Source: Mya arenaria (taxonomy: Eukaryota; Mollusca; Bivalvia; Myida; Myidae). Taken from it: 64,000 nt of DNA. The stretch spans positions 20,329,045 through 20,393,044 of the forward strand of contig NC_069127.1 in the NCBI RefSeq assembly GCF_026914265.1, read 5' to 3'. Below are positions 15,984 to 49,713 of this stretch, one piece after another. A program made the translations under genes and the position numbers. The notes under the pieces are model-generated. The model was not told the DNA's origin, ran no database searches, and saw only the letters and a program-made list of their open reading frames with translations. How positions within the stretch are numbered: the first letter of the stretch is position 1; each line of letters begins with the position of its first letter.

Positions 15984-16682
15984 TCAATGACAGAAAATGG
16001 GTCTAATTTGGGCAAAGCAGTCCAGAATATCTCTCTCCGAGCAACAAAACCCTCTCATGATCACAGTGTACCCCACCATGTTCGCTGCTATAAATAGCCG
16101 TCTTCCATGTTTCATTTCGTCGGATTTAAAAATACCACTCGTGCTGTTATTTTCACTATTACTTCTCTCAATTTTATCCGACAACTTGTTTGCACTATCC
16201 TGTGGTAACATTTCTAACGACGTTTGATTATTTTTACCATTTAATGAGCCACAATTATTATGGAGTTTTTCCAAAGCTTCGCAAGTCTCGTGTTCATCAA
16301 CGTCCCTCTTTCCTCCTATTTTAGTGTGTTCCAGTGTCTCTTCTGTGTGACCTATTTTTATAATCGGAACCGGAAGTTGTACACGTCTGGCTCCCAGATC
16401 ACTATCCAGTCCCCGGCCAATCAATAGACCTCCAGGGGAGAGAACCGTTTCATATTTACTGCCAAATATTTTTATCTGAAATGATTGACCACGCCGTTCC
16501 CCCAAAAGAGCTTTCAAAACACACATCTCTGTATCAGAAATTGCCTCGTTTCCAATACTGTAGTTGAGAACAACATTTCCGAATGGTTCGTAAATAAGAA
16601 ATGACACTTCCTTGTGCAAATATGACCGCAAAATCTCCAATATCGATTTACGTTTAAGTCTGAAAGTTTCATCTGTTTCCAT
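15984..16682 (-). CDS. Unrecognised 232-residue protein, copy 1 (ORF232)
   Basis: Single-exon open frame starting METDETFRLKRKSILEILRS and ending at TGA (15984-15986). I do not recognise a family. No signal peptide or membrane segment is visible. The N-terminal ~110 residues look folded (FLIYEPFGNVVLNYS, ISDTEMCVLKALLG), residues ~140-185 are rich in Asn, Ser and Lys and look flexible, and the C-terminus is hydrophobic and Cys-bearing (LFIAANMVGYTVIM, FCCSERDILDC). Copies at 31496 and 49015 have exactly the same length with no indels, although around 40 residues differ between copies 1 and 2 by my count. That points to protein-level constraint. It lies ~840 bp downstream of the NT5E stop on the same strand and is followed by AATAAA. 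A start at the first Met is supported by conservation of the Met-Glu start in all copies. It could be an independent gene, or a retrogene of a spliced parent elsewhere. Confidence 0.65.
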   Translation of the reverse strand: METDETFRLKRKSILEILRSYLHKEVSFLIYEPFGNVVLNYSIGNEAISDTEMCVLKALLGERRGQSFQIKIFGSKYETVLSPGGLLIGRGLDSDLGARRVQLPVPIIKIGHTEETLEHTKIGGKRDVDEHETCEALEKLHNNCGSLNGKNNQTSLEMLPQDSANKLSDKIERSNSENNSTSGIFKSDEMKHGRRLFIAANMVGYTVIMRGFCCSERDILDCFAQIRPIFCH

Positions 16683-16860
16683 GATTTAAGCAATTCAAAC
16701 TGTTCGTGCACATTTATAATATTTCTTTACTATTTCCAATCTACCATGTATGGTAAAACACTATAAGAGTTGCTTTATTAAGGAATTAGCATAACTTGAA
16801 CGTATATTTTCTCATCCTTTGTTCTGTATATCAGGCTAATGGATCATATATGTCTATATA

Positions 16861-17268
16861 TCAATACTCGGAATGCCTCAGGCACTTGCATGTCCAATAT
16901 GCCTTGTTAATGTCCCTGGTAACATCTGGATCGGCATTAAGTAAAATGCGAACATACGATAGCAATATTATAAATATGATTGTAATTCTTTCTTTAAGTT
17001 AATTATATTCATGGTAATTAAATATTAAACACATAACAGAGAGAGGAAAAACCTCGGAAAGCCAATATTGAAACTAAAACGTATTGACGTGATATTTAAA
17101 TGTGTCGCATGCTTAACCTGACAGTTTTGCTGCGCTATGTATTGACCTTCTGGTGACTCAAACTCTGAAATCAATGCAACCGTAGTCCCCATGAGCTTCG
17201 GGTATAAATAACACTCATCTGTACCATCTGGCTTGCACTGTTCAAGATCAATCGGGCCATACATGTGC
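16861..17268 (-). pseudogene. Two exon-like blocks between NT5E and ORF232, unit 1
   Basis: Block 17118-17268 is flanked by an AG acceptor and a GT donor and reads MYGPIDLEQCKPDGTDECYL then YPKLMGTTVALISEFESPEG. Block 16861-16925 follows an AG and reads VTRDINKAYWTCKCLRHSEY then a stop. The blocks do not join in one frame with these splice sites. In unit 2 the first block (32615-32752) lacks 13 nt relative to unit 1, which shifts its frame. In unit 3 about 100 bp covering its start are gone, while the second block stays open in all units. I do not recognise the protein. Most likely this is a decayed small host gene or an unused exon pair; coding status is weak. Confidence 0.3.
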
Positions 17269-17525
17269 CTATATATTATATATTTTCATTTTACTGCCAA
17301 GGGACAATCTATCTGATTTTATTTTATTGCTAGTTATAATGAAATGTTTTCACAAATACATTAAATGGCATAAACATGCTTGATATTTTATATCACATTA
17401 GCAAATTTGGTGATGAGATATTATGTAAGATTGGCATTTTTTGTATTTTACAAATCCATGAATGTTAAAATACAGTGTCCATTTACATTGAGTCTGTACT
17501 TAACTTAAGATCATGATTGTGAATT

Positions 17526-20500
17526 CTAGAAGATACTCTCAGCAAGACTTAATAACAATCCGCTTAAAAATACAAAGGTCAGTGAGCTCCTATCATGCTG
17601 CCCCTGTGCCCCTCCCACTTGGTCTGCATCAGTATTCTTGGTAACGAATGTAATTCGGCCTTCCTCGGCTGGATAGACAGGACCATGCTTACCCAGATAT
17701 TTGAACGTCACTTCGACGTCAAGCGTATCTGCAAAATAGAGAGTTTAATGTATGAGTGTGTGATTAAGTGTATGATCTCAGTATAATTCACCGAACGAGC
17801 ACCTATTATTCACGAGTGGTATATTGCGTCAAATTGTTTGCAGACGTAGCGTTAATTTAACGCAGCCTTGTGCGCACTGGCGTCTTATTAAGGCGTCGGA
17901 AATATCTATGATAAATAGAGGATATGTGTTTGTTTTAGTGTAAGATTACATTATATCTCACCGAGTAGCATCAAAAGCTATATTTCGCGAGTTGCAAAGC
18001 CAGGCGTGAAATATATAGTGGATATTATGATAGGACGCTTTTCTGGTGACCTGTAGCACGTCGAGTTCGACGGTCTCGACGGATACGTGTTTACACACCG
18101 AACGAGACGGGATGCAGGTCACCAGAAAATCGTGTTATCGTAGTATTCCATTTATTATATACCTGCCTATTTATTTATTCCTTTTAATTTTTTAGTTTCA
18201 ATTTGATTTAATTTTACCGCCATTTGCCAAATGCGCGTTTGAATTCGAATGTGTTAACGTAGTTTGTGTAATTAAGTCAAGGGAGGCTACTACAGCCAAA
18301 CGAAGTAAGAAGTTACAGAATTCAATTTATTGAGCAAAATAAGAACAAAATATTTTATATTTTAGCAAAATTAACAAATTGCTAATACGAAAACAATTAT
18401 TTAATGTCACAGCACCAAAAAAACAACATCAAAAACGGTACTTATTTTACGAGTATACACTAATCGTCATTTCATGTAGGGGTAACGCGGCCATTTTTAA
18501 AAATGTAAATATACGTGGGATTTTTTTTACGATAATGATATGGAGAATTAAGGGAAGTTCGTGAGTCAAACGCTATTTGTATCAATGACGCGAATTCGCC
18601 TTCTTCTTTATATTGGCGAGCTGCTCACATTTATGATAATAAACATGGATAATCATTAATGCAACAATTTATGAACTTAGAAATGGACAACAACTAGTTC
18701 ACTGAAGTAGCTATCTAGATAGACTGAAAGTGTTCTCTGCTTCATGCTTGTTCTCATGGTTCTTTGAAGAACATGAGAACCATGTTCCTGAATATTTACA
18801 TGCTTCTGGAGCGTGAGTAAAGTTAGATAGTTTAATGTATTTAAAAGTTGACAGGTTTTACCAGTTGTTTGTCATGCTTTTTTTAGCAACGCGAAAGTAG
18901 TTCCGAGATTACACACGGTAATCGCATGATACGGAATCAGAAAACGACAGTATCATGATACGGATTTTTCAATACGCCATGCTGTATTTTCACTGTTGGA
19001 TATGGAAAAGGAATTTGATTGGCATATAATAAATACTTTTACTGTTCACGTTTGCATGAAAATAATGACATCGTTAAAATGGAAATTAAGTCATATACGT
19101 GCTTACATTTGATTTGGACCAGAGAGGCTTAAGGTTTGACAACAGTTAAGTAAGTGGTAGGCATCAAAAATATGTGCAGAACCCGTGCTTTATGCTCATA
19201 AACCTGCAGAAATGTGATATGTGTTTAAACTTATTTTAAAACATTGACTTATTGTCAAGCGTCCACGAATGTGGTCACACTGTATCACACATGTGCATTT
19301 GTACTACCAATGTTCTGTTCAACGTCAAATACGCGTTTTTATTGAAGTTATTATTTTTCTCCAAAAAAGTACTTGAAAGAATTAATTTTGCTCATAAGTT
19401 TTATAAGAAAATCGGACAATGCATTTTAAAGTGGTCGAGTGGTGCTGTCTTCCAAGTTTTAGAATTTTTTTTTTATTTCCATTGTCCACTCTACTGTTCA
19501 GCTGTTTATGCATCTGTGTTTATATCTAACGATTCGTTCATAATCAAAATTGTGAAGACAAGATTTGTTCGTATCTTGTTTCGGTCCTGTAATACTGTAC
19601 GAGGTCCTATAACAGGACCATACCATATATTTTGCTTTTTGTTTGGTATACACGTTTTTGACCGCGGGCGTCTTGAAAGACATTTTTGTCGTACATCCAA
19701 AACATACCATGTTCTTATATAAGCTTATAAACGCAAAAACGAATATGTCTGCATTGAAAATAAAACATCAAATAACGCAACACAAACGTTTTTGTCACAG
19801 GCTTTCGGTTCTTTGTGTACTCCAAATTGTAAACTTATATCATTTTGGGGACAAATAGTGATGTTGATTCTGTTCCAAAATAACCATTATTTTACATTAA
19901 TAAGTTATTAACACATAAAATAAGGCGATTGTCTAAGCTTTCTTCTCTCAATTGAACACCAAAGATTAACCCAACAATCAGATTTTCCGGCCTCTATCTA
20001 AACTTTGTGTTCGGAAAACCATCTAAATATCTTACTGAAGAGAAGATGTTCGATCGGCTCAAACTGGTATCCGTCGCCTCCCTCGATGAGAAAGGTCGGG
20101 AGTAGAACGTTGTAAATGACGTCATCCTGCAATGGGGAGTAACTGGGCACAGCGCAAGTGAGACAGCGCACCTGTACGTCATGGACGCGCCGCATGGCCG
20201 GCTGCCTGAGGTCGTAAGTCACTTTTAACCCTAAAATATACATATGTATTTAATTAAGGTTGATGAGGTTTGGTAGGCTCAAAATACTATTATTCTAAAC
20301 GGTATCCTAAGTCTGATATGGTGATTTCTTTACTTCCTTCTAATGCATCTTGGCACCAAAGGGACATATTGTATTTCCTTTAAATGTCGTTCTGATATAT
20401 AATGAGTGCGCAAATGCAACGTTTCATACGCATTAGAATGTCAATAATACACTTAAAGTTGTTGTTCTGGCGCCCCATAACAGCTTAATGACTCGCTTGT

Positions 20501-23500
20501 TATGTCATTCTTGTGTGTATTTTGAAAGACACATATGGGGGGGGGGGGAAACACGACAAATACAGTGGCGTTCTTGTGTGTTTGTATGTTGACGGGACGC
20601 CAAAACACCAACATGGCAAAAAATACATCAATAAATTCAAGAATCGTTTTAGTTTCTTTTAACAACATTTGCAGTCCTTACAAGATAGATAGTCGTATGC
20701 CTACAAATAATACATCAATTAATCCAATAATCTTTTCTGCTTCGTTTCGATAACTACTGTGGTCGTTACTAGATAGACAAGCGTTGCATTTATTTAACCT
20801 GAAAACTGCAGAAATCGTCCATGCTTGTCTGTGACGTCATATTCGCTAACGCTGATCTCGAGCTGGTGACGTAGGTTACTTCCGTTTATTCGAATCATGT
20901 CCACTTCGTTCCTAAACGGTTGTACGGTGTTAACGTCCCCAGCAGTGATCGTACCTTATGAGTAACAACAATACCATTGTTATCATCGTTGTCACCATCA
21001 TTATCAACAACAAAAATAAAATAAAAATTCCTTCTTCTGAACTAGCCTATTCATGCTGCGTCAAAACCAGAAACAAACATTTGTTTTGCCTAATGGACAA
21101 TTTCTCGACAGATGTTAAGTAAATGACGCAGAAAAATGACAGCTTATGATAACACACGTCTTCATTTCATCTATATACATTTACCACCTTTGCCTACCTG
21201 AAAAATATTAATGGCCAAATGTCATTTTACATTTTTATATGGTTCATAAGACTTCAGTGATAATGTTTTATATTTAATGCGTTTCGCTGACAGTTAAATT
21301 GCTTGGTTCTTAATGAATTGAAACGATTTCAAATGATTCATACATTTAATATGCTTACATGGGTTAAAATAAAATAAGTCTTGTTTTATATGATAACAGT
21401 CAATTCCTAAGGCATGAGAAACCCGATATGTAAATTGAGGAGCCTGGTGAACCATAGTATGTGGTATCATTTAATCAAGTTTTATTCATTTATTTGTTCT
21501 CAATTCATTAACGAATTGTTTGCACATCTCTAAAGAAAGGTCATACTTTGATATGGATTTACTATGTTTTGATTTTGATGACATTTCTAGTTTATATACC
21601 TTTCTGGATGGAGCTTCTTATACTGCCTGAATTGAGGAGAGCAATAGCCGCTGGCGCCCAGGCCTCGTTTGACAAGTTGTAACCGGAAGTGACGTAATAG
21701 TCGATCATGGCGTCAGCGAGCATGTTACCTGAAATGATACAGTTGTCATTAGTAGTTTTATGTGGAATATCCACATATTTTCATTAATAATCATACTTAA
21801 ACATGTTCGCAAGTTCAGAAGAGTAAGTAACCTTATTTTCTGTCCTTGCAGTTTATTAAACCACCTTCATGAGTCAGAATGTGTGTATGAATATCGTCTT
21901 TTGTATAAACACAGTTCTATCAAGCTCTCCAACATTCTGGTATACTAATAAAACGCATGTGTAGTCATAATACCTATACATTTGTAAGACTTAATACAGT
22001 TTTCTATCACGCAATTCACTTTATTTTCAAAAGAGTACGTACCCAGGTTGCATTCTCGGAGGCGGCAATGCTCCCGCAGACCGTCTAACTCCACCAGCGA
22101 CAGGCCGACCTTCTCCAGCTTTACAGAATCCACCGGAAGTCGCCATGTCCCCAGCTCCCGAAGAATGCCCGCGTCTGCAAAAAATAGCTATGGTCGATAA
22201 ATCTTATACAATCTTGTATCTAATATGAACGAAGTGTAGTTAGTTCTTCATCTTGGGATGCCATGGTTTGCACGTGTTAATTAATTAGACATAATTTAGT
22301 AATAATTAGTAATAATTTATTACACCACCTTGTTCAATAGAGGAGTCAAGAAGTATGGGGTTTCCGCTCCAGGAAGTTACGTCACCATTTGTGTTGAATG
22401 TGACGTTGAGGAAACCGAGGTATTTTCCATACGTAAAATCTTGAACGACGAGAGCTCTGCCACCACCTGGCTGGCTGACGACGACCGGATATAGACCCTC
22501 GGGCGTTTCGTCGGATGGCGGCTGTCCTGTATGTACAATGTGGAATCAATGACATGACTCGCAAGGAGCATTTCAATTACTATTAGCACTATTGAAAAAA
22601 AACGGTAATACAAAAAGTGTTTGTACCTGCCTAGTATAACACTGCTAAAAGCATTACCGGTATCCAGGAACAACAGCTAAGTTCCGTACCCGCGTTGGAA
22701 ACACTTTCTTTTGTCAATTCCCGTACCATAGCGTACACTTCAGCAATTCTCTATACACATATTGAGACAAGTTATAAGAAAGTACCTTATCGCCGTAAAG
22801 TACAGGTAAATCTATACAGCTCATGTTCCTACCGGTGTAAAGGAATGTGTCCGTGTGTCCGCCTACGACAACGTCCACTCCGTCTATAGCGGCCACCTGC
22901 TGATCCATCCGAAAGCCTGCGTGACCCAAAGCCAAGATCTTGGTCACACCTTGAGATTGCAGTACCGCCACCTCCGCGGAAACGCTGCTGATGACGTCTT
23001 TAAACGTCACCGTCGGTCCTGATATAAAAGCATATTCAGTTCGATATTTTTCAACATGTAATCTTATGAATTGCAATAACATATTTGAATAAAAATAGGT
23101 GAAAGGAAAGAAAACGAGAATAATAGAACAACAGCAGGCCATCAGTTATGTTGCTAGAGACAATAGATTTTCGATTGCCTAAGGTTAAAATGCTAAATTG
23201 GCCAACACAAAGGAGAAAGTAAAAACTATAATAAAGTGTGTATTGAAAATATCTTCACCTGGTTTGGATATAATTTGGGTTTCTGGTGTTATGTAACCTA
23301 TAACCCCAATATGTTCTCCCCCAACGTTCTTAATGACGCTTTTTGACAAAAGTCTGCTGAGCTTTGGTTCATTCGTGACGTCAACGGAAGAACTGACGAC
23401 GTCAAAACTGACGTTACCCAAGAAGGAAGCCAATGGGTCCACTCCAAGATCGAATTCGTGATTTCCCAGACACTGTACATGTTGAAATAGATTGAATATA

Positions 23501-24040
23501 AAGCAGTGTCAATGTTGAAGCATTTTATAAAGAACCTGAATATAATTTATAACATTAAAATAAACTGTTCGTTTACTAGAAACTACTTTGAAAATTTGGT
23601 AGCTAAATCAGTCCTATGATTTCCTAAAATATCTAATATACACATGAAAGAAAGTAATATATAAACTATACACGAAAATTGTATGGTCTACGAGCGAAAC
23701 CCACCATGACGTCATATCCGAGCTGATTCATAAAGTATGACGTGGCTTTGCCTCTGTGAACGAAAAACCAGAGTGTCCCCATGAACTGATCACCTGCGTC
23801 TAAAAGTAGCACATTGTCATGGCCACTCCGAATGTCCTTGATCTTCGTGTTTCGCCTAGCAACGCCACCAAAGCACTTTCCAGCTGCGGCGTCATCGACG
23901 CTGCAGTCCGCACCGTACTTGTTGATCTGTTCAAACCGAGCGTGCACGTCGTTGGTGTGCAGAATGGTCAACTCGTAGCTGGCCACTCTGGCCGAAATGG
24001 CGAGCACAAGACTCGTGTAGCAATACATCTTGTATAACAT
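17526..24040 (-). CDS. NT5E: Ecto-5'-nucleotidase (CD73-like), copy 1
   Basis: Zinc-dependent ectoenzyme that hydrolyses extracellular AMP to adenosine, expected on the outer cell surface. Nine exons, all phases consistent, 582 codons plus stop: 23705-24040, 23259-23472, 22833-23018, 22329-22526, 22043-22174, 21600-21728, 20799-20954, 20036-20230, 17526-17728. Signal peptide at residues 1-21, then ELTILHTNDVHARFEQ (metal Asp and His), LLLDAGDQFMGT, GNHEFD at the exon 1/2 boundary, LGHAGFRMD and GGHTDTFLYTG (metal His residues). The C-terminal substrate domain shows LRECNLGNMLADAM, LLNSGSIRSSI, VPSYSPL and GGDGYQF (Tyr where human CD73 has Phe500). The last exon has VYPAEEGRITF, then a Ser/Gly-rich stretch and a hydrophobic tail LTFVFLSGLLLSL, a GPI-anchor signal. 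Length is close to human CD73 (574). The start Met is directly before the signal peptide. AATAAA hexamers lie on the minus strand near 17318-17328. Nearly identical to copy 2. Confidence 0.92.
18010..18160. mobile_element. Long-hairpin MITE in NT5E intron 8, unit 1
   Basis: The left arm (ATATATAGTGGATATTATGA, then TTTTCTGGTGACCTG) and the right arm (CAGGTCACCAGAAAA, then TATTCCATTTATTATAT) are inverted copies, so the ~150 bp folds on itself. In unit 2 (33472-33650) the hairpin is longer and its arms continue toward the centre. Unit 3 has no copy. Palindromic non-autonomous elements are common in mollusc introns; superfamily not determined. Confidence 0.6.
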
Positions 24041-25460
24041 ATTTCCTTCTGTTTGATATATTTCCGCTTTATTTAGAGGAAAACAAATTAGAATGTATTT
24101 ACAGCATCAAACATATATGAAATTAATGAGAGTCTGAGCATCTACCATAGGAACACATAGGAACACACATTGTTTATATTTTAGACGAATTTTATCATAG
24201 ATATATTGTCCCAACAAATTAATTCGAGCTGGTCCTGACCTTTATATTTGCTTACATCTTACGCTGAATACAGCCAGTATACGTTTACATAAACCATTCA
24301 TGCATTCTCTATAAATTTAGTGGCAAGATAAATGCGTACAATATGTTTGCGCAGATGAAACAAATCCTAAATAAAACCACATGTTTTTTGCTTTGTATAA
24401 CCTGACGATGCCTGTTTCAGGTAATACAATCCTTACAATGTACGTATGTTCTTCAACTATTTGTCGGTTGTTTATTGAAGGGTAAAGATGGCTTATACTT
24501 AGAGATATTTGAGACCGTTTCGCTGTCAAAACAAATACGAATGAAATACGTCATGTGATAAAAAAAACAAAACAGTTTCCATTTAACATACAACATGTTA
24601 TAAAACTCAGTACACACGCACTCGGCCCACTTAATAACCTTTCCCAAACATATTTTATTTTTATTAAATGATAACTCATTTAAGATTCTCTATACTATAA
24701 TATAATATTTATCCACTAGCAATATGAGTTTGGGCTCTCGTTATACCCTTATTACTATAATTATTATGATTATATAAACACATTGGGAGAGGGTCGTAAC
24801 TTATGTTGGCAACAACTCGTGGCCAATTCCCTTTGAATATATAATATGTGTTTCAATTATTGTGTAGATTTTGCGTATATATTCGGAATGTAATATTTAT
24901 TTTCATGCAAAAAACTATTATGAAAAATTACTCTTTAGCTTTAAATATGACAATATTTAGGCAGTAATAACTTAAACGATTATTTTTAATTTATTGTTTT
25001 GATACAATTATTTATCCTACCGTTTTATATATTTTTTATACATCCACAAGAATGTTATCGCGAGTCAGTAATCCAATATTTGTAATAATTAGGTACCTCG
25101 AAGTAAATGTTACAAACAGAAAATATTAACAGTCAACTTTTAAATTATTTACCTAACCCGTATCCTTTCACGAAGATGTCACAATTTAATTTAAGTCATC
25201 CTAGCGTGACCACAGGTAATTTGCATAAAACAAGATTTCTATCACCGAAGTATTGTTAAGTATTTACGCCAAGGATAGTATCGATTGCACCCCGACTATG
25301 ACGCAATTTCAATAGACATCGTAATTCTAAAGATTGCTGACAGTTCGCAGGTTTAAATGATGTAATAATTACTTGTAAGATATTTATAAGCGATAGGAAA
25401 TACGTTCAAATAACATTCATACCAAGTATAAGTATATTTATCTCTGTTCGGTCAGACTAG
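24041..25460. promoter_or_regulatory. NT5E: Conserved upstream flank of NT5E, unit 1
   Basis: About 1.4 kb before the NT5E start stays alignable in all three units (39527-40757 continuing after the inserted element, and 56003-57060), including 'CAAATTAATTCGAGCTGGTC', 'TCTATAAATTTAGTGGCAA' and 'CACATGTTTTTTGCTTTGTA' (units 1 and 2). It must contain the promoter and 5' UTR. I cannot place a TATA box or start site with confidence; conservation here may simply reflect shared ancestry. Confidence 0.4.
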
Positions 25461-27529: not shown

Positions 27530-27780
27530 ACAATGGGCAATAACTCTAAAATATGGAAGCAAGAGTTACGGTTCTTGTGCACTGCACTTGCCCTCAATGA
27601 GATTTATCTAACTATTAAGTTTCAATATATATGCAAAAAGCTACAGAAACATGCTCAGTAGCAAAAAGTTTAAACATAAACCCGGTTTAGTGGCAATGGG
27701 CAACGCCAAAGACATAGAACACAAAATTCACAAACAAGAAACATAGAACAGCACACAACTCTACAAGCACAGTGCATAAA

Positions 27781-27784
<4 letters not shown>

Positions 27785-28497: not shown

Positions 28498-29110
28498 TTA
28501 GTTATGAAAGGATGCTATATTCAACCCAATATTTTGCTTCAGGTATTCATCTTCAAATACAAGAAGGCAAGTGCTCTTCAAAATATTGCCTTTATATCCA
28601 CGGTTGAAATAAAATCCAAATAATTCATTAAGTCTATCTGCCCAACTGCCTGCTGGAAACATTTTAATTTTACGAATTTTCTTTAAAACATCACCATAAA
28701 AATCGGGATGAGCAATACTATCAGCAATGAGCGATTTAAGACTACTATTGTACTTTGATATGAGATTATAATGACCATTAACAAATTTAGAGAAAGTTTT
28801 CCTTAATTTAAAATATCGGAAACCCTGTTTTAGAAGTTTTTGCGTCATAAGTTTACTGCGAGAGCTGATTTTTTTTTTACATCTGTACATATTTTAGCAA
28901 ATCGTATTAAGTGTGCAATAAAACACCATACGATGGTGAAATAGGAACATCACCATCTAAAGAAGGGTAATTAATTATTTTAAAATTAAAATCATCACGT
29001 TTATCATAAAGATTGATGCTCAATATATCTTCCTTTACTTCTAGTTGCAAAACTAAATAGGATCCTTTTAAAACGGATGTATTATCAAGTTGATAACTCT
29101 TATATTCTTC
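28498..29110 (-). mobile_element. LINE relic: C-terminal reverse-transcriptase region, spacer 1
   Basis: Minus-strand protein fragments contain YDKRDDFNFKIINYPSLDGD with VPISPSYGV, and RSKLMTQKLLKQGFRYFKLR with SIAHPDFYGDVLKKIRKI. These phrases are typical of the C-terminal part of reverse-transcriptase polyproteins in mollusc and coral retroelements. The fragment is broken and inactive. The matching relic in spacer 2 is 46230-46880. Together with the endonuclease-like and ORF1-like blocks at 30060-31022, in the same orientation, this is likely one old LINE whose middle has been lost. Confidence 0.6.
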
Positions 29111-31341: not shown

Positions 31342-31495
31342 AAGATTGTATAAGAGAATTTCTGAGATATGACCTTTATTAAATAGGGACAAATTATGCT
31401 ACAATAGAAAGTCTGCTCAACAGGTAAGCAAAATGTAAGTAAAAATCTACAATGTCAAACAACCTGATTTTTAAGCTCTGCTTATCAGATTTAGT

Positions 31496-32194
31496 TCATC
31501 GACAGAGAATGGGTTTAATTTGAGCAAGGCAGTCCAGAATTTCTCTCTCCGCGCAACTTAACCCTCTCATGATCACAGTGTACCCCACCATGTTCGCTGC
31601 TATAAATAGCCGTATTCCATGTTTCATTTCTTCGGATTTATAAATACCACTAGTTTTGAACTTTTCACTCTTACTTCTCTCAATTTTATCCGACAACTTG
31701 TTTGCACTATCCTGTGGTAACATTTCTAACGACGTTTGATTATTGTTACCATTTAATGAGTCACAAGTATCGAAGATTTTTTCCAAACCTTCGCAAGCCT
31801 CGTGTTCACCAACGTTTCTCTTTCCTCCTATCTTATTGCGTTCCAGTGTGTCTTCTGTGTGACCTATTTTTATAATCGGAACCGGAAGTTGTACACGTCT
31901 GGTTCCCATATCACTATCCGGTCCCCGGCCAATCAACAGACCTCCAGGGGAAAGAACCATTTCATATTTACTGCCGAATATATTTATCTGAAATGTTTGA
32001 CCACACCGTTCCCCCAAAAGAGCTTTCAAAACACACATTTCTGTATCAGAAATTGCCTCGTGCCCTATACTGTAGTTGAGAACAACATTTCCGAATGGTT
32101 CGTAAATAAGAAATGACACTTCCTGGTGCAAATATGATCGCAAAATCTCCAATACCGATTTACGTTTAAGTCGGAAAGTATCATCTTTTTCCAT
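31496..32194 (-). CDS. Unrecognised 232-residue protein, copy 2 (ORF232)
   Basis: Same intronless frame and length as copies 1 and 3, starting MEKDDTFRLKRKSVLEILRS and ending ...CLAQIKPILCR. By eye about 14 residues differ from copy 3 and about 40 from copy 1. Changes cluster in the polar middle (residues ~127-180), while the N-terminal block (EVSFLIYEPFGNVVLNYSIG) and the C-terminal block (RLFIAANMVGYTVIMRG) are almost unchanged. That is the pattern expected of folded ends and a flexible linker under selection. It sits ~790 bp downstream of NT5E copy 2 on the same strand. A conserved AATAAA lies at 31375-31380. No function assigned. Confidence 0.65.
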   Translation of the reverse strand: MEKDDTFRLKRKSVLEILRSYLHQEVSFLIYEPFGNVVLNYSIGHEAISDTEMCVLKALLGERCGQTFQINIFGSKYEMVLSPGGLLIGRGPDSDMGTRRVQLPVPIIKIGHTEDTLERNKIGGKRNVGEHEACEGLEKIFDTCDSLNGNNNQTSLEMLPQDSANKLSDKIERSKSEKFKTSGIYKSEEMKHGIRLFIAANMVGYTVIMRGLSCAEREILDCLAQIKPILCR

Positions 32195-32614
32195 GATTTA
32201 AGCAATTCAAACTGTTCGTAGACATTTATAATATTTCAATACTATTTTCAATCTACCTTGTATGGTACTAACACTAGTAGAATTGCATTATTAAGGAATC
32301 TACTTAACGCGAACGCACTTTTTTCTTTTCATGCTGTATATCAGGCTAATTGATCATATATATCAATACTCGGAATGCTTTAGGCACTTGCATGCCCAAT
32401 AAGCCGTGTTAAAGTCGCTGGTAACATCTGGATCGGCAATAAATAAAATGCGAACATACGATAACAATATTATAAATATGGCTGTATTTCTTTCTTTAAT
32501 TAAATTCATGGTATTTAAGTATTAAACACATAACTGAGAGAGGAAAAACCTCGGGAAGCCAATATTGAAACTAAAACGTATTGATGTGATATTTAAATAT
32601 GTTTCATGCTTAAC

Positions 32615-32986: not shown

Positions 32987-35900
32987 CTAGAAGATCCTCT
33001 TAAGAAGACTTAATAACAATCCGCTTAAAAATACAAAGGTCAGTGAGCTTCTATCATGCTGCCCCTGTGCCCCTCCCACTTGGTCTGCATCCGTATCCTT
33101 GGAAACGAATGTAATTCGGCCTTCCTCGGCTGGATAGACAGGACCATGCTTACCCAGATATTTAAACGTCACTTCGACGTCAAGCGTATCTGCAAAATAG
33201 AGAGTTTAATATACGAGTGTGTGATTAAGTGTATGATCTCAGTATAATTCACCGAGCGAGCACCTGTTATTCACGAGTGGTATAATGCGTTAAATTGTTT
33301 GCAGACGTAGCGTTTATTTAACGCAGCCTTGTGCGCACTGGCGTCTTATTAAGGCGTCGGAAATATCTATGATAAATAGAGGATACTTGTTTGTTTTAGT
33401 GTAAGATTACATTATATCTCACCGAGTAGCACCGAAAGCTATATTTCGCGAGTTGCAAAGCCAGGAGTGAAATATATAGTGGATATTATGATAGGACGCT
33501 TTTCTGGTGACCTGTATCACGTCGAGTTCGGTGTGTAAACACGTATCCGCCGAGAACGCAGGTCGAGACGGATACATGTTTACTCAACGAACGAGACGTG
33601 ATGCAGGTCACCAGAAAATCGTGTTATCGTAATATTCCATTTATTATATACCTGCCTATTTTATTATTCCTTTTACTTTTTTTGGTTTCAATTTGATTTA
33701 ATTTTACCACCATCTGCCAAATGCGCGTATGAATTCGAATGTGTTAACGTAGTTTGTGTAATGAAGTCAAGGGAGGCTACTACAGCCAAACGAAGTAAGA
33801 AATTCACTTTATTGAGCATAATAAGAACAAAATATTTTATATTTTAGCAAAATTAACAAATTGCTAATACGAAAACAATTATTTAATGTCACAGCACAAA
33901 AAATAACATCAAAAACGGTACTTATTTTACGTGTATACACTAATCGTCATTTCCTGTAGGCGTAACGCGGCCATTTTTAAAAAAAGGTAAATATACGTGG
34001 GATTTTTTTACGATAATAATATGCAGAATTGAGGGAAGTTTGTGAGTCAAACGCTATTTCTATCGATGACGCGAAATCGCCTTCTTCTTTATATTGGCGA
34101 GCTGCTCCCATTTATGATAATAAATATGGATAATCATTAATGCAACAATTTATGAACTTCGAAATGGACAAAAACTAGTTCACTGAAGTAGCTATCTAGA
34201 TAGACTGGAAGTGTTCTCTGCTTCATGCTTATCCTCATGGTTCTTTGAAGAACATGAAAACCATGTTCCTGAATAGTTACATGCTTTTGGAGCGTAAGTA
34301 AAGTTAGATAGTTTAATGTATTTAAAAGTTGACAGGTTTTACCAGTTGTTTTGTCATGCTATTTTTAGCAACACGAAAGTAGTTCCGAGATTGCACACGG
34401 TACTCCAATGATACGGAATCAGTAAACGACAGTATCATGATACGGATTTTTCAATACGCCGTGCTGTATTTTCACTGTTGGATATGGAAAAGGAATTTGA
34501 TAGGCATATGATAAATACTTTTACTGCTCACGTTTGCATGAAAATAATGACATCGTTAAAATTGAAATTAAATCTTATACGTGCTTACATTTGATTTGGA
34601 CCAGATAGTGGGCTTAAGGTTTGACAACAGTTAAGTAAGTGGTAGGCATCAACAATATGTGCAGAACCCGTGCTTTATGCTCATAAACCTGCAGAAATGT
34701 GATATGTGTTTAAACTTATTTTAAAACATTGACTTATTGTCAAGCGTCCACGAATGTGGTCACACTGTATCACACATGGGCATTTGTACTACCAATGTTC
34801 TGTTCAACGTCAAATACGCGTTTTTATTGAAGTTATTATTTTTCTCCAAAAAGTACTTGAAAAATTTAATTTTGCTCATAAGTTTTATAAGAAAATCGGA
34901 CAATGCATTTTAAACTTGTCGAGTGGTGCTGTCTTCCAAGTTTTAGAAAAAATATATTATTATTTCCATTGTCTAGTCTACTGTTCAGCTGTTTATGCAT
35001 CCGTGTTTATATCTAGCGATTCATTCATAATCAAAATTGTGAAGATAAGATTTGCTCGTATCTTGTTTTGGTCCTGTAATACTGTACGAGGTCCTGTAAC
35101 AGGACCATACCATATATTTTGCTTTTTGTTTGGTATACACGTTTTTGACCGCGGGCGTCTTGAAAGACATTTTTGTCGTACATCCAAAACATACCATGTT
35201 CTTATATAAGCTTATAAACGCAAAAACGAATATGTCTGCATTGAAAATAAAACATCAAATAACGCAACACAAACGTTTTTGTCACAGGCTTTCGGTTCTT
35301 TGTGTACTCCAAATTGTAAACTTATATCATTTTGGGGACAAATAGTGATGTTGATTCTGTTCCAAAATAACCATTATTTTACATTAATAACACATACAAT
35401 AAGGCGATTGTCTAAGCTTTCTTTTCTCAAATGAACACTTAGATTAACCCAACAGTCAGATTTTCGGGCCTCTATCTAAACTTTGTGTTGGGAAAAAGAT
35501 CTAAATATCTTACTGAAGAGAAGATGTTCGATCGGCTCAAACTGGTATCCGTCGCCTCCCTCGATGAGAAAGGTCGGGAGTAGAACGTTGTAAATGACGT
35601 CATCCTGCAATGGGGAGTAACTGGGCACAGCGCAATTGAGACAGCGCACTTGCACGTCATGCACGCGCCGCATGGCCGGCTGCCTGAGGTCGTAAGTCAC
35701 TTTTAACCCTAAAAATATACATATGTATTTAATTAAGGTTGATGAGGTTTGGTAGGCTCAAAATACTATTATTCTAAACGGTATCTTAAGTCTGATATGG
35801 TGATTTCTTTACTTCCTTCTAATGCATCTTGGCACCAAAGGGACATATTGTATTTCCTTTAAATGTCGTTCTGATATATAATGAGTGCGCAAATGCAACG

Positions 35901-38900
35901 TTTCATACGCATTAGAATGTCAATAATACACTTAAAGTTGTTGTTCTGGCGCCCCATAACAGCTTAATGACTCGCTTGTTATGTCATTCTTGTGTGTATT
36001 TTGAAAGACACATATAGGGGGGGGGGGGGGGGGGAACACGACAAATACAGTGGCGTTCTTGTGTGTTTGTATGTTGACGGGACGCCAAAACACCAACATG
36101 GCAAAAAATACATCAATAAATTCAAGAATCGTTTTAGTTTCTTTTTAACAACATTTGCAGTCCTTACAAGATAGATAGTCGTATGCCTACAAATAATACA
36201 TCAATTAATCCAGTAATCTTTTCTGCTTCGTTTCGATAACTACTGTGGTCGTTACTAGATAGACAAGCGTTGCATTTATTTAACCTGAAAACTGCAGAAA
36301 TCGTCCATGCTTGTCTGTGACGTCATATTCGCTAACGCTGATCTCGAGCTGGTGACGTAGGTTACTTCCGTTTATTCGAATCATGTCCACTTCGTTCCTA
36401 AACGGTTGTACGGTGTTAACGTCCCCAGCAGTGATCGTACCTTAGGAGTAACAACAATACCATTGTTATCATCGTTGTCACCATCATTATCAACAACAAA
36501 AATAAAATAACAATTCCTTCTACTGAACTAGCCTATTCATGCTGCGTCAAAACCAGAAACAAACATTTGTTTTGCCTAATGGACAATTTCTCGACAGATG
36601 TTAAGTAAATGACGCAGAAAAATGACAGCTTATGATAACACACGTCTTCATTTCATCTATATACATTTACCACCTTTGCCTACCTGAAAAATATTAATGG
36701 CCAAATGTCATTTTACATTTTTATATGGTTCATAAGACTTTAGTGATTATGTTTTATATTTAATGCGTTTCGCTGACAGTTAAATTGCTTGGTTCTTAAT
36801 GAATTGAAACGATTTCAAATGATTCATACATTTAATATGCTTACATGGGTCAAAATAAAATAAATCTTGTTTTATATGATAACAGTCAATTCCTAAGGCA
36901 TGAGAAACCCGATATGTAAATTGAGGAGCCTGGTGAACCATAGTATGTGGTATCATTTAATCAAGTTTTATTCATTTATTTGTTCTCAATTCATTAACGA
37001 ATTGTTTGCACATCTCTAAAGAAAGGTCATACTTTGATATGGATTTACTATGTTTTGATTTTGATGACATTTCTAGTTTATATACCTTTCTGGATGGAGC
37101 TTCTTATACTGCCTGAATTGAGGAGAGCAATAGCCGCTGGCGCCCAGGCCTCGTTTGACAAGTTGTAACCGGAAGTGACGTAATAGTCGATCATGGCGTC
37201 AGCGAGCATGTTACCTGAAATGATACAGTTGTCATTAGTAGTTTTATGTGGAATATCCACATATTTTCATTAATAATCATACTTAAACATGTTCGCAAGT
37301 TCAGAAAAGTAAGTAACCTTATTTTCTGTCCTTGCAGTTAATTAAACCACCTTCATGAGTCAGAATGTGTGTATGAATATCGTCTTTTGTATAAACACAG
37401 TTCTATCAAGCTCTCCAACATTCTGGTATACTAATAAAACGCATGTGCAGTCATAATACCTATACATTTGTAAGACTTAATACAGTTTTCTATCACGCAA
37501 TTCACTTTATTTTCAAAAGAGTACGTACCCAGGTTGCATTCTCGGAGGCGGCAATGCTCCCGCAGACCGTCTAACTCCACCAGCGACAGGCCGACCTTCT
37601 CCAGCTTTACAGAATCCACCGGAAGTCGCCATGTCCCCAGCTCCCGAAGAATGCCCGCGTCTGCAAAAAATAGCTATGGTCGATAAATCTTATACAATCT
37701 TGTATCTAATATGAACGAAGTGTAGTTAGTTCTTCATCTTGGGATGCCATGGTTTGCACGTGTTAATTAATTAGACATAATTTAGTAATAATTAGTAATA
37801 ATTTATTACACCACCTTGTTCAATAGAGGAGTCAAGAAGTATGGGGTTTCCGCTCCAGGAAGTTACGTCACCATTTGTGTTGAATGTGACGTTGAGGAAA
37901 CCGAGGTATTTTCCATACGTAAAATCTTGAACGACGAGAGCTCTGCCACCACCTGGCTGGCTGACGACGACCGGATATAGACCCTCGGGCGTTTCGTCGG
38001 ATGGCGGCTGTCCTGTATGTACAATGTGGAATCAATGACATGACTCGCAAGGAGCATTTCAATTACTATTAGCACTATTGAAAAAAAACGGTAATACAAA
38101 AAGTGTTTGTACCTGCCTAGTATAACACTGCTAAAAGCATTACCGGTATCCAGGAACAACAGCTAAGTTCCGTACCCGCGTTGGAAACACTTTCTTTTGT
38201 CAATTCCCGTACCATAGCGTACACTTCAGCAATTCTCTATACACATATTGAGACAAGTTATAAGAAAGTACCTTATCGCCGTAAAGTACAGGTAAATCTA
38301 TACAGCTCATGTTCCTACCGGTGTAAAGGAATGTGTCCGTGTGTCCGCCTACGACAACGTCCACTCCGTCTATAGCGGCCACCTGCTGATCCATCCGAAA
38401 GCCTGCGTGACCCAAAGCCAAGATCTTGGTCACACCTTGAGATTGCAGTACCGCCACCTCCGCGGAAACGCTGCTGATGACGTCTTTAAACGTCACCGTC
38501 GGTCCTGATATAAAAGTTTATTCAGTTCGATATTTTTCAACATGTAATCTTATGAATTGCAATAACATATTTGAATAAAAATAGGTGAAAGGAAAGAAAA
38601 CGAGAACAATAGAACAACAGCAGGCCATCAGTGATGTTGCTACAGAAAATAGATTTTCGATTGCCTAAGGCTAAAATGGTAAATTGGCCATCACAAAGGA
38701 GAAAGTAAAAACTATAATAAAGTGTGTATTGAAAATATCTTCACCTGGTTTGGATATAATTTGGGTTTCTGGTGTTATGTAACCTATAACCCCAATATTT
38801 TCTCCCCCAACGTTTTTAATGACGCTTTTTGACAAAAGTCCGCTGAGCTTCGGTTCATTCGTGACGTCAACGGAAGAACTGACGACGTCAAAACTGACGT

Positions 38901-39526
38901 TACCCAAGAAGGAAGCCAATGGGTCCACTCCAAGATCGAATTCGTGATTTCCCAGACACTGTACATGTTGAAATAGATTGAATATAAAGCAGTGTCAATG
39001 TTGAAGCATTTTATAAAGAACCTGAATATAATTTATAACATTAAAATGAACTGTTCGTTTACTAGAAACTACTTTGAAAATTTGGTAGCTAAATCAGTCC
39101 TATGATTTTCTCAAATATCTAATATACACATGAAAGAAAGTAATATATAAACTATACACGAAAATTGTATGGTCTACGAGCGAAACCCACCATGACGTCA
39201 TATCCGAGCTGATTCATAAAGTATGACGTGGCTTTGCCTCTGTGAACGAAAAACCAGAGTGTCCCCATGAACTGATCACCTGCGTCTAAAAGTAGCACGT
39301 TGTCATGGCCACTCCGAATGTCCTTGGTCTTCGTGTGTCGCCTAGCAACGCCACCAAAGCACTTTCCAGCTGCGGCGTCATCGACGCTGCAGTCCGCACC
39401 GTACTTGTTGATCTGGTCAAACCGAGCGTGCACGTCGTTGGTGTGCAGAATGGTCAACTCGTAGCTGGCCACTCTGGCCGAAATGGCGAGCACAAGACTC
39501 GTGTAGCAATACATCTTGTATAACAT
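32987..39526 (-). CDS. NT5E: Ecto-5'-nucleotidase (CD73-like), copy 2
   Basis: Same reaction and location as copy 1. Nine exons in frame: 39191-39526, 38745-38958, 38319-38504, 37815-38012, 37529-37660, 37086-37214, 36285-36440, 35514-35708, 32987-33189; 582 codons plus stop. Signal peptide, metal-site motifs (TNDVHARF, DAGDQFMGT, GNHEFD, GHAGFRMD, GGHTDTFLYTG) and substrate motifs (RECNLGN, LLNSGSIRSSI, GGDGYQF) are all intact. Exons 3 to 7 and their introns are almost base-for-base identical to copy 1. Differences sit in exon 1 (ARFDQ, RRHTKTKDI), exon 2, exon 8 and the last exon, whose tail ends SLLKRIF instead of SLAESIF. The GPI-type hydrophobic tail is kept. Near-identity suggests very recent duplication or gene conversion. 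Short reads would not separate expression of copies 1 and 2 well. Confidence 0.92.
33472..33650. mobile_element. Long-hairpin MITE in NT5E intron 8, unit 2
   Basis: Nearly perfect palindrome. The left arm (TTTTCTGGTGACCTGTATCA, then GGTGTGTAAACACGTATCCG) pairs with the right arm (CGGATACATGTTTACTCAAC, then GATGCAGGTCACCAGAAAA) around a centre near 33556. Unit 1's copy lacks most of the inner left arm, so the two units show a fuller and a reduced form of one element. Confidence 0.65.
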
Positions 39527-42523: not shown

Positions 42524-43267
42524 CCAAGGATAGTATCGATTGAACCCCGATTATGACGCAATTTCAATAGACATCGGAATTCGTAATTATAAAGATTGTT
42601 GACAGTTCGCATTTGAATGATGTAATAATTACTTGTGAGATATTTATAAGCGATAGGAAGTACGTTCAAATAACATTCATACCAAGTATAAGGACATTAA
42701 TCTCTGTTCGGTCAGACTAGACCATGACAATAATCCCATTAGAATATTTTCGTTTTCAGTATGTCATTAAGCTTGTGCAATTATATTTTTTAATTTATAA
42801 TTGCTATTTAACAAACTATCTTTCCTTTAAAAAATGTGATACATTTTATTATCTAAAAGTGTCTTCTTATGTCAAGCTATTTTTCACCACAAGGACCACA
42901 ATGAAAATAAGGGATTTACAATTTCTTTTTGTGATATCCTTTGTGTGCAATGTAGTGGACATGGATTATTTTACTTATGCTTAATGTTTTAATCATGTAT
43001 AATGTTACCATGTTTTATACATTTTATACTGAAATAAATCTATCTATCTATCTAATCACGTCTTAGTTCAATATAAACTGTTTTAGTAGTCTTAGCATAA
43101 TAAACTAGCAACAATAAAGAAATAGCAAACAAATAAAACTTGGTGAGTAAGAAGGTGGAAACTCAAAATTTAAATTTAAGTTTTAATTATTTGTCATTTT
43201 TATTTCCTTATTATTTAAGCAAAGATTAAACTACTGGACTAACCGTCTGTTGCTTATTACAATTTTG

Positions 43268-45430: not shown

Positions 45431-45684
45431 TACAATGGGCAATAACTCTAAAATATGGAAGCAAGAGTTACGGTTCTTGTGCACTGCACTTGCCCTCAAT
45501 GAGATTTATCTAACTATTAAGTTTCAATATATATGCAAAAAGCTACAGAAACATGCTCAGTAGCAAATTTTTTTAACATAAACCCGGTTTAGTGGCAATG
45601 GGCAACGCCAAAGACATAGAACACATATTCACAAACAAGAAACATAGAACAGCACACAACTCTACAAACAGCACAGTGCATACA

Positions 45685-45687
<3 letters not shown>

Positions 45688-45763
<76 letters not shown>
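45688..45763. repeat. (AT)n microsatellite, spacer 2
   Basis: Uninterrupted AT run, the orthologue by position of 27785-27865. Poly-Ile/Tyr open frames across it are artefacts. Confidence 0.95.
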
Positions 45764-45766
<3 letters not shown>

Positions 45767-46229
45767 GGTATGTTTATCAAGAATTGTTAGGTACCGCCTT
45801 GGAACTGTCAGTAAAATGTAAATTTACTGGGGGTTTAAACCAGTTTATGTGCACAAACCTCACTCTTATCTCAACAATTCTTAATAAAGATAAAACGCAA
45901 AAGATAAATCTTATCAAAGTATGCATTAACTTGAGGAAACTTATCAATAAAACAAATAATAATAAAAAACGAAAAGGTAAACCCCAAGTACTTCAATGAT
46001 TAGAGATCCCAACTCTATCTGCAGACGGAGGGAAACAATTCAGAGCACCTAATGCATATACTTTTCAAAGATACGATGCAGTCATCGTTAGAAACCAAAA
46101 GCTTCACTCACAGTCTGCCTTAAAAGGTTTAAAACTGTGTGATCATAGAGTCAAAACACTCGGAGTCAGTCAACACGTGTCCGCCAAAAACGGTTTTAAA
46201 GATAACATGAATTAGCAAATTCTTCATAA

Positions 46230-46880
46230 AAATCAAAGCACTGAAAGTTTAGTTATGAAAGGATGCTATATTCAACCCAATATTTTGTTTCAGGTATTCA
46301 GGTATCTTCAAATACAAGAAGGCAAGTGCTCTTCAAAATATTTCCTTTATGTCCACGGTTGAAATAAAATCCAAGTAATTCATTAAGTCTATCTGCCCAA
46401 CTGCCTGCTGGAAACATTTTAATTTTACGAGTTTTCTTTAAAACATCACCATAAAAATCGGGATGAGCAATACTATCAGCAATGAGCGATTTAAGACTAC
46501 TATTGTACTTTGATATGAGCTTATAATGACCATTAACAAATTTAGAGAAAGTTTTCCTTAATTTAAAATATGGAAACCCTGTTTTAGAAGTTTTGCGTCA
46601 TAAGTTTACTGCGAGAGCTGATTTTTTTTACATCTGTACATATTCTAGCAAATCGTATTAACTGTGCAATAAAAACACCATACGATGGTGAAATAGGAAC
46701 ATCACCACCTAAAGAAGGGTAATTAATTATTTTAAAATTAAAATCATCACGTTTATCATAAAGATTGATGCTCAATATATCTTCCTTTACTTCTAGTTGC
46801 AAATCTAAATAGGATGCTTTTAAAACGGATGTATTATCAAGTTGATACCTCTTATATTCTACAAGATATGCCCCGGCCAA
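46230..46880 (-). mobile_element. LINE relic: C-terminal reverse-transcriptase region, spacer 2
   Basis: Copy of the 28498-29110 relic by duplication. Phrases YDKRDDFNFKIINYPSLGGD and YGVFIAQLIRFARICTDV are readable. Broken; its breaks differ partly from those in unit 1, so decay continued after duplication. Confidence 0.55.
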
Positions 46881-46894
46881 AATTTAAGCATGAA

Positions 46895-47350
46895 AATTAA
46901 CAAAGTGCAATTACTCTAAAACTAAGAAGGCAAGACTTACTGTTATTGTGCACTGCATTTGCCCTCCATAAGATCTATCTACATATGAAGTTTCAAGTTG
47001 ATAACTCTTATATTCTTCAAGATATGCCCCGGACAAAACTTTAAGCATGAAAATTAACAAACGGCAATTACTCTTAACATATGGAAGCAAGAGTAACAGT
47101 TCTTATGCACTGCACTTGTTCTTAATAAGATCTATCTACATATAAAATTTCAAGTTCATACCACTAATAGTTTACGAGATATGCCCCGGACAAGTGAAAA
47201 CAGGACGCGGACGCCAACAATGGGCACAAACTCTAAAATATGGAAGCAAGAGTTACGGTTCTAATGCACTGCACTTGCCGTCAATGAGATCTATCGAGCT
47301 ATGAAGTTTCAAGTTGATACCTCTTATATTCTTTAAGACATGCCCCTGAC
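46895..47350 (-). repeat. ~155 bp tandem repeats of mollusc type, spacer 2
   Basis: About three units (starting near 46905, 47060 and 47220) of the family described for 29150-29965. At least two units fewer than in spacer 1. Confidence 0.65.
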
Positions 47351-47529
47351 AAAACTTTGAGTGCGACGTCATATACCAAATGGAAAATTTCGAACATAAT
47401 TTTTTTCCAATATCTGTAGCTTAAAAAATGTGAACACTTTTGACCAGTGAATTAAACAGGAAACAATACGTATACATAATGATTAACAAAGATCTAATAA
47501 CAATACCGTGGCTATTATGATATTTGTCG

Positions 47530-48465
47530 ACAGAGGCCCTAAGGCACATTGTCTGGGTTATAATCTATATCATGAAAAAGGTCCTTGCATTTATAAAAAC
47601 ACCTAACCATTGCTAGTATACGCATACATATCATGTTCCAGCGTATCAAATGCATCTTTATCGTTGAATGTATTTTAAGCTTTTGGGTCTTCACCCTAAA
47701 AATAGGATCCACACAAATAAATGACTTCACATAATTATATTAAAAGAAATATGATCTAATTTCAACCATATTATGGTATCATGGCGGTTTTTAACAAGAT
47801 GTATTTCATCTTGTAAATTATCTTTGTATAGTAAAACTATTCCCCCCGCTACAAGTGCATTATGGTTTTGAAAATTTCTGTATACATTATAAGTTATATA
47901 TCCATTCAGATTTAATTTGTTAGACGAATTTGTCCAAGATTTGTAAAAGAAAAAAAATATCATGCTTAGTATTTTCTCGCTTGTAAGTCCATGCACATTC
48001 TATGCCATCACGGACAGGTCATCCTCAACGTGTCCCTAATCTCGGACTGGGCGGCCGTCGACGTATAACGTGTCGTAGGCAATCCACGAACGTTTACCAC
48101 TTTCCCTGGCGGCTTTCATTTTTGGTACGAGCTTCCCCCGCTTCGCAATCACTTCCGGTGGGTACTGTTCAGACACGTGCAAAGCGGTTCCACGTAATTC
48201 CTTCTATTGCCGGCGCACGGTCTTTCGATCATTAACTATCGTAAATGTGGCTATGATTGACCTAACTTTGCCCGGCACCGAATGCCCTGGAGACCTGAGC
48301 ACGCTCGAAGCGTATGCTGTCCGCGGTCTCATTGGCAAATTTGAGCGCTTCATGTATGTGCTGGCGCAGCTTCCGCTCCGTTACCTCCGCGGTCTCGTTA
48401 CCTCTGATGTTGTCTTCCAGAACATTGTTGAAGACCTCATGTGGCCTTGGCCTTTGACCAAGTGA
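47530..48465 (-). mobile_element. LINE relic: ORF1-like and endonuclease-like blocks, spacer 2
   Basis: Duplicate of the 30060-31022 relic, with the same order on the minus strand: ORF1-like block 48002-48465, then endonuclease-like block 47530-48000 (KLNLNGYITYNVYRNFQNHN, GGIVLLYKDNL, DTIIWLKLDHISFN). Decayed, inactive. Confidence 0.6.
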
Positions 48466-49014
48466 CCCCTTAAAGTAACATGGAACTTCTACTTTACATT
48501 TGAAGTGTTAGTGTCGAAAGGTAAAATAAAAAAGAAAACGTTTTGTACACGTTGCTCAGAAAGTTCCATAAGTTCTTTCTAACTGACAAGCCATAACGAA
48601 TTTAAACGATTAACGGAAAACAGTAAAAAAAACAACGTGTATTTGTCTGGATTGATAGTTGCACACAGCGGGTCGGAAGTATAATTCGGTTTTAAAAGTG
48701 AAACCAAAAGTAGACATTTTAAAACGACGAGTTGCATTGTTCATTGGCTCGATGCCATGTCGAATAGTCTACTTTAGGCAATGTCTACTTTGATAAACCG
48801 ATTTAGAACACTTATACTATTCGAACTTATTTATGGTTTTGTTCAATTTCTAAATAAGATTGTATAAGAGAATTTCTGAGATATGACCTTTATTAAATAG
48901 GGACAAATTATGATACAATAGAAAGTTTGCTCAACAGGTAAACAAAATGTAAGTAAAAATCTACAATGTCATTTCAAACAACTTTATTTTTAAGCTCTGC
49001 TTATCAGATTTACT

Positions 49015-49713
49015 TCATCGACAGAGAATGGTTTTAATTTGAGCAAGGCAGTCCAGAATTTCTCTCTCCGCGCAACAAAACCCTCTCATGATCACAGTGT
49101 ACCCCACCATGTTCGCTGCTATAAATAGCCGTCTTCCATGTTTCATTTCTTCGGATTTATAAATACCACTAGTTTTGTACTTTTCACTGTTACTTCTCTG
49201 AATTTTATCCGACAACTTGTTTGCACTATCCTGTGGAAACATTTCTAACGACGTTTGATTATTGTTACCATTTAATGAGTCACAAGTATCGAAGATTTTT
49301 TCCAAACCTTCGCAAGCCTCGTGTTCACCAACGTTTCTCTTTCCTCCTATCTTATTGTGTTCCAGTGTGTCTTCTGTGTGACCTATTTTTATAATCGGAA
49401 CCGGAAGTTGTACACGACTGGTTCCCATATCACTATCCGGTCCCCGGCCAATCAACAGACCTCCAGGGGAAAGAACCGTTTCATATTTACTACCGAATAT
49501 ATTTATCTGAAATGTTTGACCACACCGTTCTCCCAAAAGAGCTTTCAAAACACACATTTCTGTATCAGAAATTGCCTCGTGCCCTATTCTGTAGTTGATA
49601 ACAACATTTCCGAATGGTTCGTAAATAAGAAATGACACTTCCTGGTGCAAATATGATCGCAAAATCTCCAATACCGATTTACGTTTAAGTCGGAAAGTAT
49701 CACCTTTTTCCAT
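49015..49713 (-). CDS. Unrecognised 232-residue protein, copy 3 (ORF232)
   Basis: Third copy of the intronless ORF, MEKGDTFRLKRKSVLEILRS to ...CLAQIKTILCR, exactly 232 residues. It keeps residues that copy 2 changed (FCC near residue 211, Arg 193), so copy 2 is not simply its daughter by one step. AATAAA at 48889-48894 lies about 120 nt after the stop. The NT5E copy 3 stop is ~735 bp upstream on the same strand. The three-copy comparison (same length, no indels, no stops, conserved ends) is the evidence that this is a gene and not a chance frame. Function unknown. Confidence 0.65.
   Translation of the reverse strand: MEKGDTFRLKRKSVLEILRSYLHQEVSFLIYEPFGNVVINYRIGHEAISDTEMCVLKALLGERCGQTFQINIFGSKYETVLSPGGLLIGRGPDSDMGTSRVQLPVPIIKIGHTEDTLEHNKIGGKRNVGEHEACEGLEKIFDTCDSLNGNNNQTSLEMFPQDSANKLSDKIQRSNSEKYKTSGIYKSEEMKHGRRLFIAANMVGYTVIMRGFCCAEREILDCLAQIKTILCR

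Follow-up and report, generated by a model that had tools for sequence, protein, structure and literature searches.

A 232-codon orphan reading frame beside three tandem NT5E copies in Mya arenaria is probably a coding gene under weak constraint

Introduction

A 64,000-nt stretch of DNA from Mya arenaria (GCF_026914265.1, NC_069127.1, positions 20,329,045–20,393,044), hereafter the window, contains three copies of NT5E, each followed on the same strand by an open reading frame (ORF) of 232 codons. This arrangement raises the questions of whether the ORF is a gene, what its product might be and why it is found beside each NT5E copy. The initial annotation called the ORF conserved, recognized no family and suggested that its pairing with NT5E might be chance linkage or a hint of shared regulation. 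We call the ORF an orphan in the sense that no family was reported from the libraries named below. Among the papers listed by our literature searches, no title or opening of an abstract dealt with the ORF or with tandem NT5E copies, which does not show that neither has been described.

Results

Layout of the three units

The ORF copies occupy positions 15984–16682 (copy 1), 31496–32194 (copy 2) and 49015–49713 (copy 3) of the minus strand, exactly as annotated. Each runs from ATG to stop over 232 codons, and the earlier claim that the three are equal in length and free of indels and internal stops was borne out. The products differ at 40 (copies 1 and 2), 41 (copies 1 and 3) and 14 residues (copies 2 and 3), in agreement with the earlier figure of up to about 40, and the corresponding nucleotide differences number 57, 60 and 16. 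In local alignments the divergence between copies 1 and 2 was 8.2% in the ORF, 11.0% upstream and 20.1% downstream; the values were 8.6, 9.5 and 21.6% for copies 1 and 3, and 2.3, 5.9 and 4.1% for copies 2 and 3. A tblastn search of the window gave no fourth copy, its other matches all having E-values of 0.32 or worse.

Each ORF is accompanied by motifs at nearly constant distances. In each copy the sequence TATAAA stands 36 nt ahead of the start codon (minus strand, 16713–16718, 32225–32230 and 49744–49749) and may be a promoter element. Every copy also has an in-frame TAA two codons ahead of its start. Downstream, the sequence motif AATAAA (minus strand, 15860–15865, 31375–31380 and 48889–48894) begins 119, 116 and 121 nt past the stops of copies 1, 2 and 3, confirming the distance of about 120 nt noted previously, and would serve as a polyadenylation signal. 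Immediately downstream of ORF copy 1 there is an array of 46-nt tandem repeats (15086–15591).

NT5E is represented on the minus strand by nine exon cores in each unit, at 17529–24040 (copy 1), 32990–39526 (copy 2) and 50451–56002 (copy 3). Metallophos and 5_nucleotid_C are both matched when the exon cores of copy 1 are joined. The cores of all three copies are open once exon 3 has been trimmed as described below, and a TAG follows exon 9 directly in every unit. The ORF lies 843, 792 and 734 nt downstream of this stop in units 1, 2 and 3. An AATAAA is found 198, 119 and 198 nt after the NT5E stop in the three copies (17323–17328 in copy 1). An apparent stop in exon 3 of NT5E copy 2 was rejected as a disruption: it precedes the start of similarity to human NT5E and is therefore probably intronic. 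Exon 3 was trimmed before substitutions were counted, by 13 codons in copy 2 and 12 in copy 3.

Elsewhere in the window, a plus-strand segment at 8489–8833 matches the Pfam family p450 (4.7e-25), with Cytochrome P450 4B1 as its best PDB match. The plus-strand segments 4603–4848 and 6664–6972 have no Pfam match; joined to it by reading alone, they look like parts of one cytochrome P450 gene (4603–8833). A minus-strand ORF of 130 aa at 28498–28890, without a significant Pfam match (best E 0.14), lies in an internally repetitive part of the unit. Long minisatellite-like stretches at 59818–63307 leave several frames open, with repeating peptides such as SSHTTDIDTYPGLV, and contain doubtful tRNA calls. 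No Rfam family and no convincing tRNA was found in the window.

The reading frame has been kept open

Forty first-order Markov sequences, each of 57 kb, had a longest ATG-initiated ORF of 118 aa on average and of 169 aa at most. The absence of indels was also compared with the flanks of the ORF, where the alignments show 9 indels over 641 sites for pair 1–2, 6 over 664 for pair 1–3 and 6 over 653 for pair 2–3. At these rates 9.8, 6.3 and 6.4 indels would be expected in the 699 nt of the ORF and none is present (Poisson P = 0.0001, 0.0018 and 0.0016), bearing in mind that the pairs are not independent and that the flanks amount to just 641–664 sites. In a selection-free simulation, with copy 3 as the ancestor and branch lengths set by hand, all three frames stayed open in 2.4% of runs with roughly the observed number of changes and in 0.4% at roughly the flank rate.

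The gap-free blocks of the unit alignments give a similar picture. Units 1 and 3 share 96 such blocks with a median of 33.5 nt; the one containing the ORF (857 nt) is the second longest, between blocks that cover NT5E exons 1–2 (875 nt) and exon 9 (604 nt). Of the eight longest, seven cover at least part of the ORF or of an NT5E exon. The exception, at 16855–17216, is a block of 362 nt between NT5E and the ORF that has no coding overlap and in which units 1 and 3 diverge by 5.2%; copy 2 carries a 13-nt gap within its counterpart, and the block is possibly promoter or 5′ UTR sequence. In units 2 and 3, the ORF block (813 nt) is again second, among 92, and all eight of the longest overlap coding parts. 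From the lengths and overlaps of its gap-free blocks, the ORF thus resembles known exons.

When codon usage was scored with NT5E as the training set, the ORF frames ranked within the top 1.5–1.8% of intergenic frames. This support is weak, since frame 1 of copy 1 is slightly outscored by one of the other frames. As judged by the indels, the Markov ORF lengths and the gap-free blocks, the frame has been kept beyond chance, and the ORF is probably a real, maintained coding gene of no family found here.

Selection on the ORF is weak overall

Nei–Gojobori (NG86) estimates of dN/dS for the whole ORF were 0.86 for copies 1 and 2 (bootstrap limits 0.48–1.83), 0.69 for copies 1 and 3 (0.42–1.30) and 1.9 for copies 2 and 3 (0.52 to infinite). 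These values cannot be told from 1, and the ORF is not conserved in the strong sense that the initial annotation implied. That annotation had taken a ratio near 1 together with a lack of transcripts to refute its claim; a range of 0.69–1.9, not clearly below 1, corresponds to the first half of this. Replacements were then counted against a neutral simulation that used the substitution spectrum of the flanks, its P values being uncorrected and the pairs sharing branches. Their numbers were as expected without selection (40 against 40.4, 41 against 42.4 and 14 against 11.8 for pairs 1–2, 1–3 and 2–3). In two of the three pairs the replacements were nonetheless more conservative than neutral ones: the mean BLOSUM62 score was 0.20 where −0.38 was expected (P = 0.019) and 0.34 where −0.39 was expected (P = 0.0025), the remaining pair giving P = 0.33.

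The differences had been described as sparing both ends of the protein, which holds for one of them. The N-terminal 112 residues carry fewer replacements than the neutral expectation (12 against 19.4 in pair 1–2, P = 0.020; 15 against 20.2 in pair 1–3, P = 0.078; 5 against 5.7 in pair 2–3, P = 0.47), whereas no such deficit is seen in the C-terminal 37 residues (8 against 6.4, 7 against 6.7 and 3 against 1.9). The dN/dS of residues 1–112 was 0.43, 0.43 and 0.73, with wide limits. Selection on the ORF therefore looks weak, with constraint seen in the N-terminal half only; our reading is of an old constraint, strongest N-terminally, that is now relaxed among the copies.

These results bear on the possibility that the ORF is non-functional and decaying: a sequence once under selection, for instance an intronless retrocopy, that now drifts in all copies and is open mainly because the duplications are young. 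Ratios indistinguishable from 1 and neutral numbers of replacements are what such decay would leave, as is the pair of copies 2 and 3, in which 16 nucleotide changes have replaced 14 residues. It does not sit easily with the conservative replacements in two pairs, with the lack of indels where the flanks predict 6–10 per pair, or with the rarity of simulated runs, at the hand-set branch lengths, in which all frames stayed open; moreover, there is no poly(A) tract in the 134–146 aligned nt beyond the 3′ end. We regard decay as unlikely, if less so than any of the other alternatives.

The linker between the two ends evolves with a dN/dS of 1.36, 0.96 and infinite, which would also fit an ORF of two exons in which part of the linker is an in-frame intron. 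At least 14 frame-keeping GT..AG pairs are common to the three copies, and some would remove most of the linker. Such pairs are frequent by chance, however, and the linker, free of stops in every copy, is situated inside the long gap-free block. A two-exon structure is accordingly quite improbable in our view.

Relationship between the ORF and NT5E

NT5E offers an internal yardstick at this locus, as a known enzyme gene and an orphan gene have been copied together; because both were duplicated together, their rates are comparable. For NT5E exon cores 1–8, dN/dS was 0.19 (copies 1 and 3) and 0.18 (copies 2 and 3), with upper limits of 0.27, and 0.30 (0.06–1.04) for the recent pair of copies 1 and 2. 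At the older split, dN was 0.084 in the ORF against 0.030 in NT5E exons 1–8, about three times as high. The short exon 9 of NT5E gave ratios of 0.60 (copies 1 and 2), 0.23 (copies 1 and 3) and 0.92 (copies 2 and 3), so it is not tightly constrained either.

Identity between the units forms a mosaic. Units 1 and 2 are 90.1% identical over 15841–18069 and 97.0% identical over 18072–25278, and this step, at 18069–18072 between NT5E exon cores 9 and 8, may be the edge of a duplication or conversion tract. Further along, up to 33478, units 1 and 2 compared with the next unit show 92.3, 95.9, 88.7, 96.3, 94.4 and 92.7% identity in successive pieces. The closest ORF pair is copies 2 and 3, while the closest NT5E pair is copies 1 and 2, with similar dS values (0.014 and 0.017). 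At the older splits dS is 0.10–0.12 for ORF copy 1 and 0.16 for NT5E copy 3. Exon 9 of NT5E differs at 9 (copies 1 and 2), 9 (copies 1 and 3) and 8 (copies 2 and 3) of 198 nt, which gives no clear grouping of copies 2 and 3.

In the account that we infer, a block of about 15 kb with both genes would have been duplicated in tandem twice, carrying the ORF along. The older duplication would have set ORF copy 1 and NT5E copy 3 apart from the remaining copies. The later one would have involved some 15.5 kb (18072 to about 33530), with one edge inside NT5E between exons 8 and 9. A single late event is the simplest account; gene conversion may also have contributed, given the uneven identity and the undecided grouping of exon 9.

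Of the two readings of the pairing offered initially, linkage is the better. Shared regulation is needless, as an edge of relatedness that cuts through NT5E is expected from duplication of a whole block, and it was dropped as the cause of the pairing in favour of block duplication. With or without gene conversion, linkage suffices.

Regulation would be shared if the ORF belonged to the NT5E transcript, as part of a long 3′ UTR or as an alternative last exon. The common strand and the position 734–843 nt downstream in all three units are compatible with this. Against it, every NT5E copy has its own stop with an AATAAA 119–198 nt beyond, and the ORF has a start, a TATA-like box and an AATAAA of its own. 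We consider a common transcript a shade less probable again than the in-frame intron.

The product has no recognized family and an uncertain fold

The predicted product has a mass of 26.1 kDa and a pI of 6.4–7.0, and contains no strongly hydrophobic 19-residue stretch (top mean hydropathy 1.49). Polar and charged residues make up 62–65% of the linker (residues 113–194) against 40–43% of residues 1–92. In line with the initial annotation, searches of Pfam, NCBIfam and PHROGs reported no family. Pfam searches with or without the linker reported none, Profilin (PF00235), Roadblock/LC7 and longin included, the HMMER filters dropping most matches above E 0.1. PDB sequences gave nothing of weight (best E 1.2 in one search, none in another). 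Scans of viral and prokaryotic contigs for relatives returned 83 and 50 matches to the pattern, and no relative was encoded by any of them; this says little, since these collections are viral and prokaryotic.

Encoding by a transposon is the least probable of the readings considered: sequence is repeated in the remainder of the unit, and insertions distinguish the units, but no match to a transposon-encoded protein family, which the initial annotation held would refute its own claim, was found in Pfam, neither Pfam nor PHROGs reported any family, the inverted repeats within the regions inspected around copies 1 and 3 are all short and imperfect, and within the window the copies are confined to the tandem units.

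Two memberships were tried and rejected. Hydrophobic patterns noticed by eye suggested Profilin, but against a profile built from nine profilins the score of the ORF did not exceed those of shuffles; two profilins matched Profilin in Pfam at 1.5e-37 and 4e-42. With a profile of three roadblock-type proteins the ORF again did no better than shuffles, and longins were compared via Pfam.

AlphaFold2, given the three window copies as its only input, returned a mean pLDDT of 30 for the full length and 52 for N-terminal residues 1–105, and matches to either model carry little weight because both values are low. The full-length model, itself of low confidence, has the element order H-E-E-H-E ... E-E-H; helix–strand–strand–helix–strand ... 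strand–strand–helix is the order of SNARE-like and profilin-like folds. At E 0.001, Foldseek found no match for the full-length or the N-terminal model. Among the best 50 of 314 full-length matches (E up to 10), 18 have titles of complexes that contain longin, roadblock or related domains (Mon1–Ccz1, KICSTOR, outer-arm dynein, roadblock, Ragulator, AP-complex, TRAPP and BLOC-3), none of them significant (best E 0.18, probability at most 0.35). For most of these rows the chain matched is presumed to be the one of longin or roadblock type, and the nature of one ‘heteroheptameric complex’ is likewise presumed. Glutamine synthetases account for 11 of the same best 50, including the top row, and no longin or roadblock titles were present among the 50 matches listed for the N-terminal model.

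Discussion

The analysis favours a small protein-coding gene without introns. It would follow NT5E on the same strand at a distance of 0.73–0.84 kb and have a TATA-like box and an AATAAA to itself. We think it likely that this gene was co-duplicated with NT5E by linkage, a judgement that leaves the fold aside. The standing given to the alternatives need not be balanced exactly against this one, as the readings overlap; a drifting retrocopy shares most of the evidence. By appearance the ORF is a fairly ordinary fast-evolving orphan gene, and its co-duplication with NT5E looks ordinary too. If expressed, it would be a clean case for how loosely constrained orphan genes persist.

The product would be a soluble 26-kDa protein with a folded α/β domain formed by residues of about 8–92 and 195–232, interrupted by a polar, probably disordered linker at about 113–194. 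That this domain is SNARE-like or profilin-like (longin, roadblock, profilin), and acts as a protein–protein adaptor whose copies are under relaxed constraint, is a tentative guess that we ourselves find doubtful, in view of the glutamine synthetase matches, the lack of the theme in the N-terminal model and the failed profile tests. Distinctly unlikely, on this predicted architecture, is the bolder proposal that the ORF represents an undescribed animal family of intronless, fast-evolving adaptors in which a SNARE-like domain is split by a long, variable, disordered linker, the gene being retained in several copies while the linkers diversify under relaxed or positive selection.

The ORF product resembles longin, roadblock/LC7 and profilin proteins in the order of helices and strands predicted by its model, which is of low confidence. 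It differs from them in having no profile or sequence match and in the linker of some 80–100 residues that would split the domain. Another comparison is with the lineage-specific orphan genes of animals, of which tandemly duplicated examples are a known kind. Unlike those genes, the ORF is known here from the sequence of one window, and restriction to a lineage is not implied. What it has in common with them is the lack of a family, fast amino-acid change and intact frames linked in tandem.
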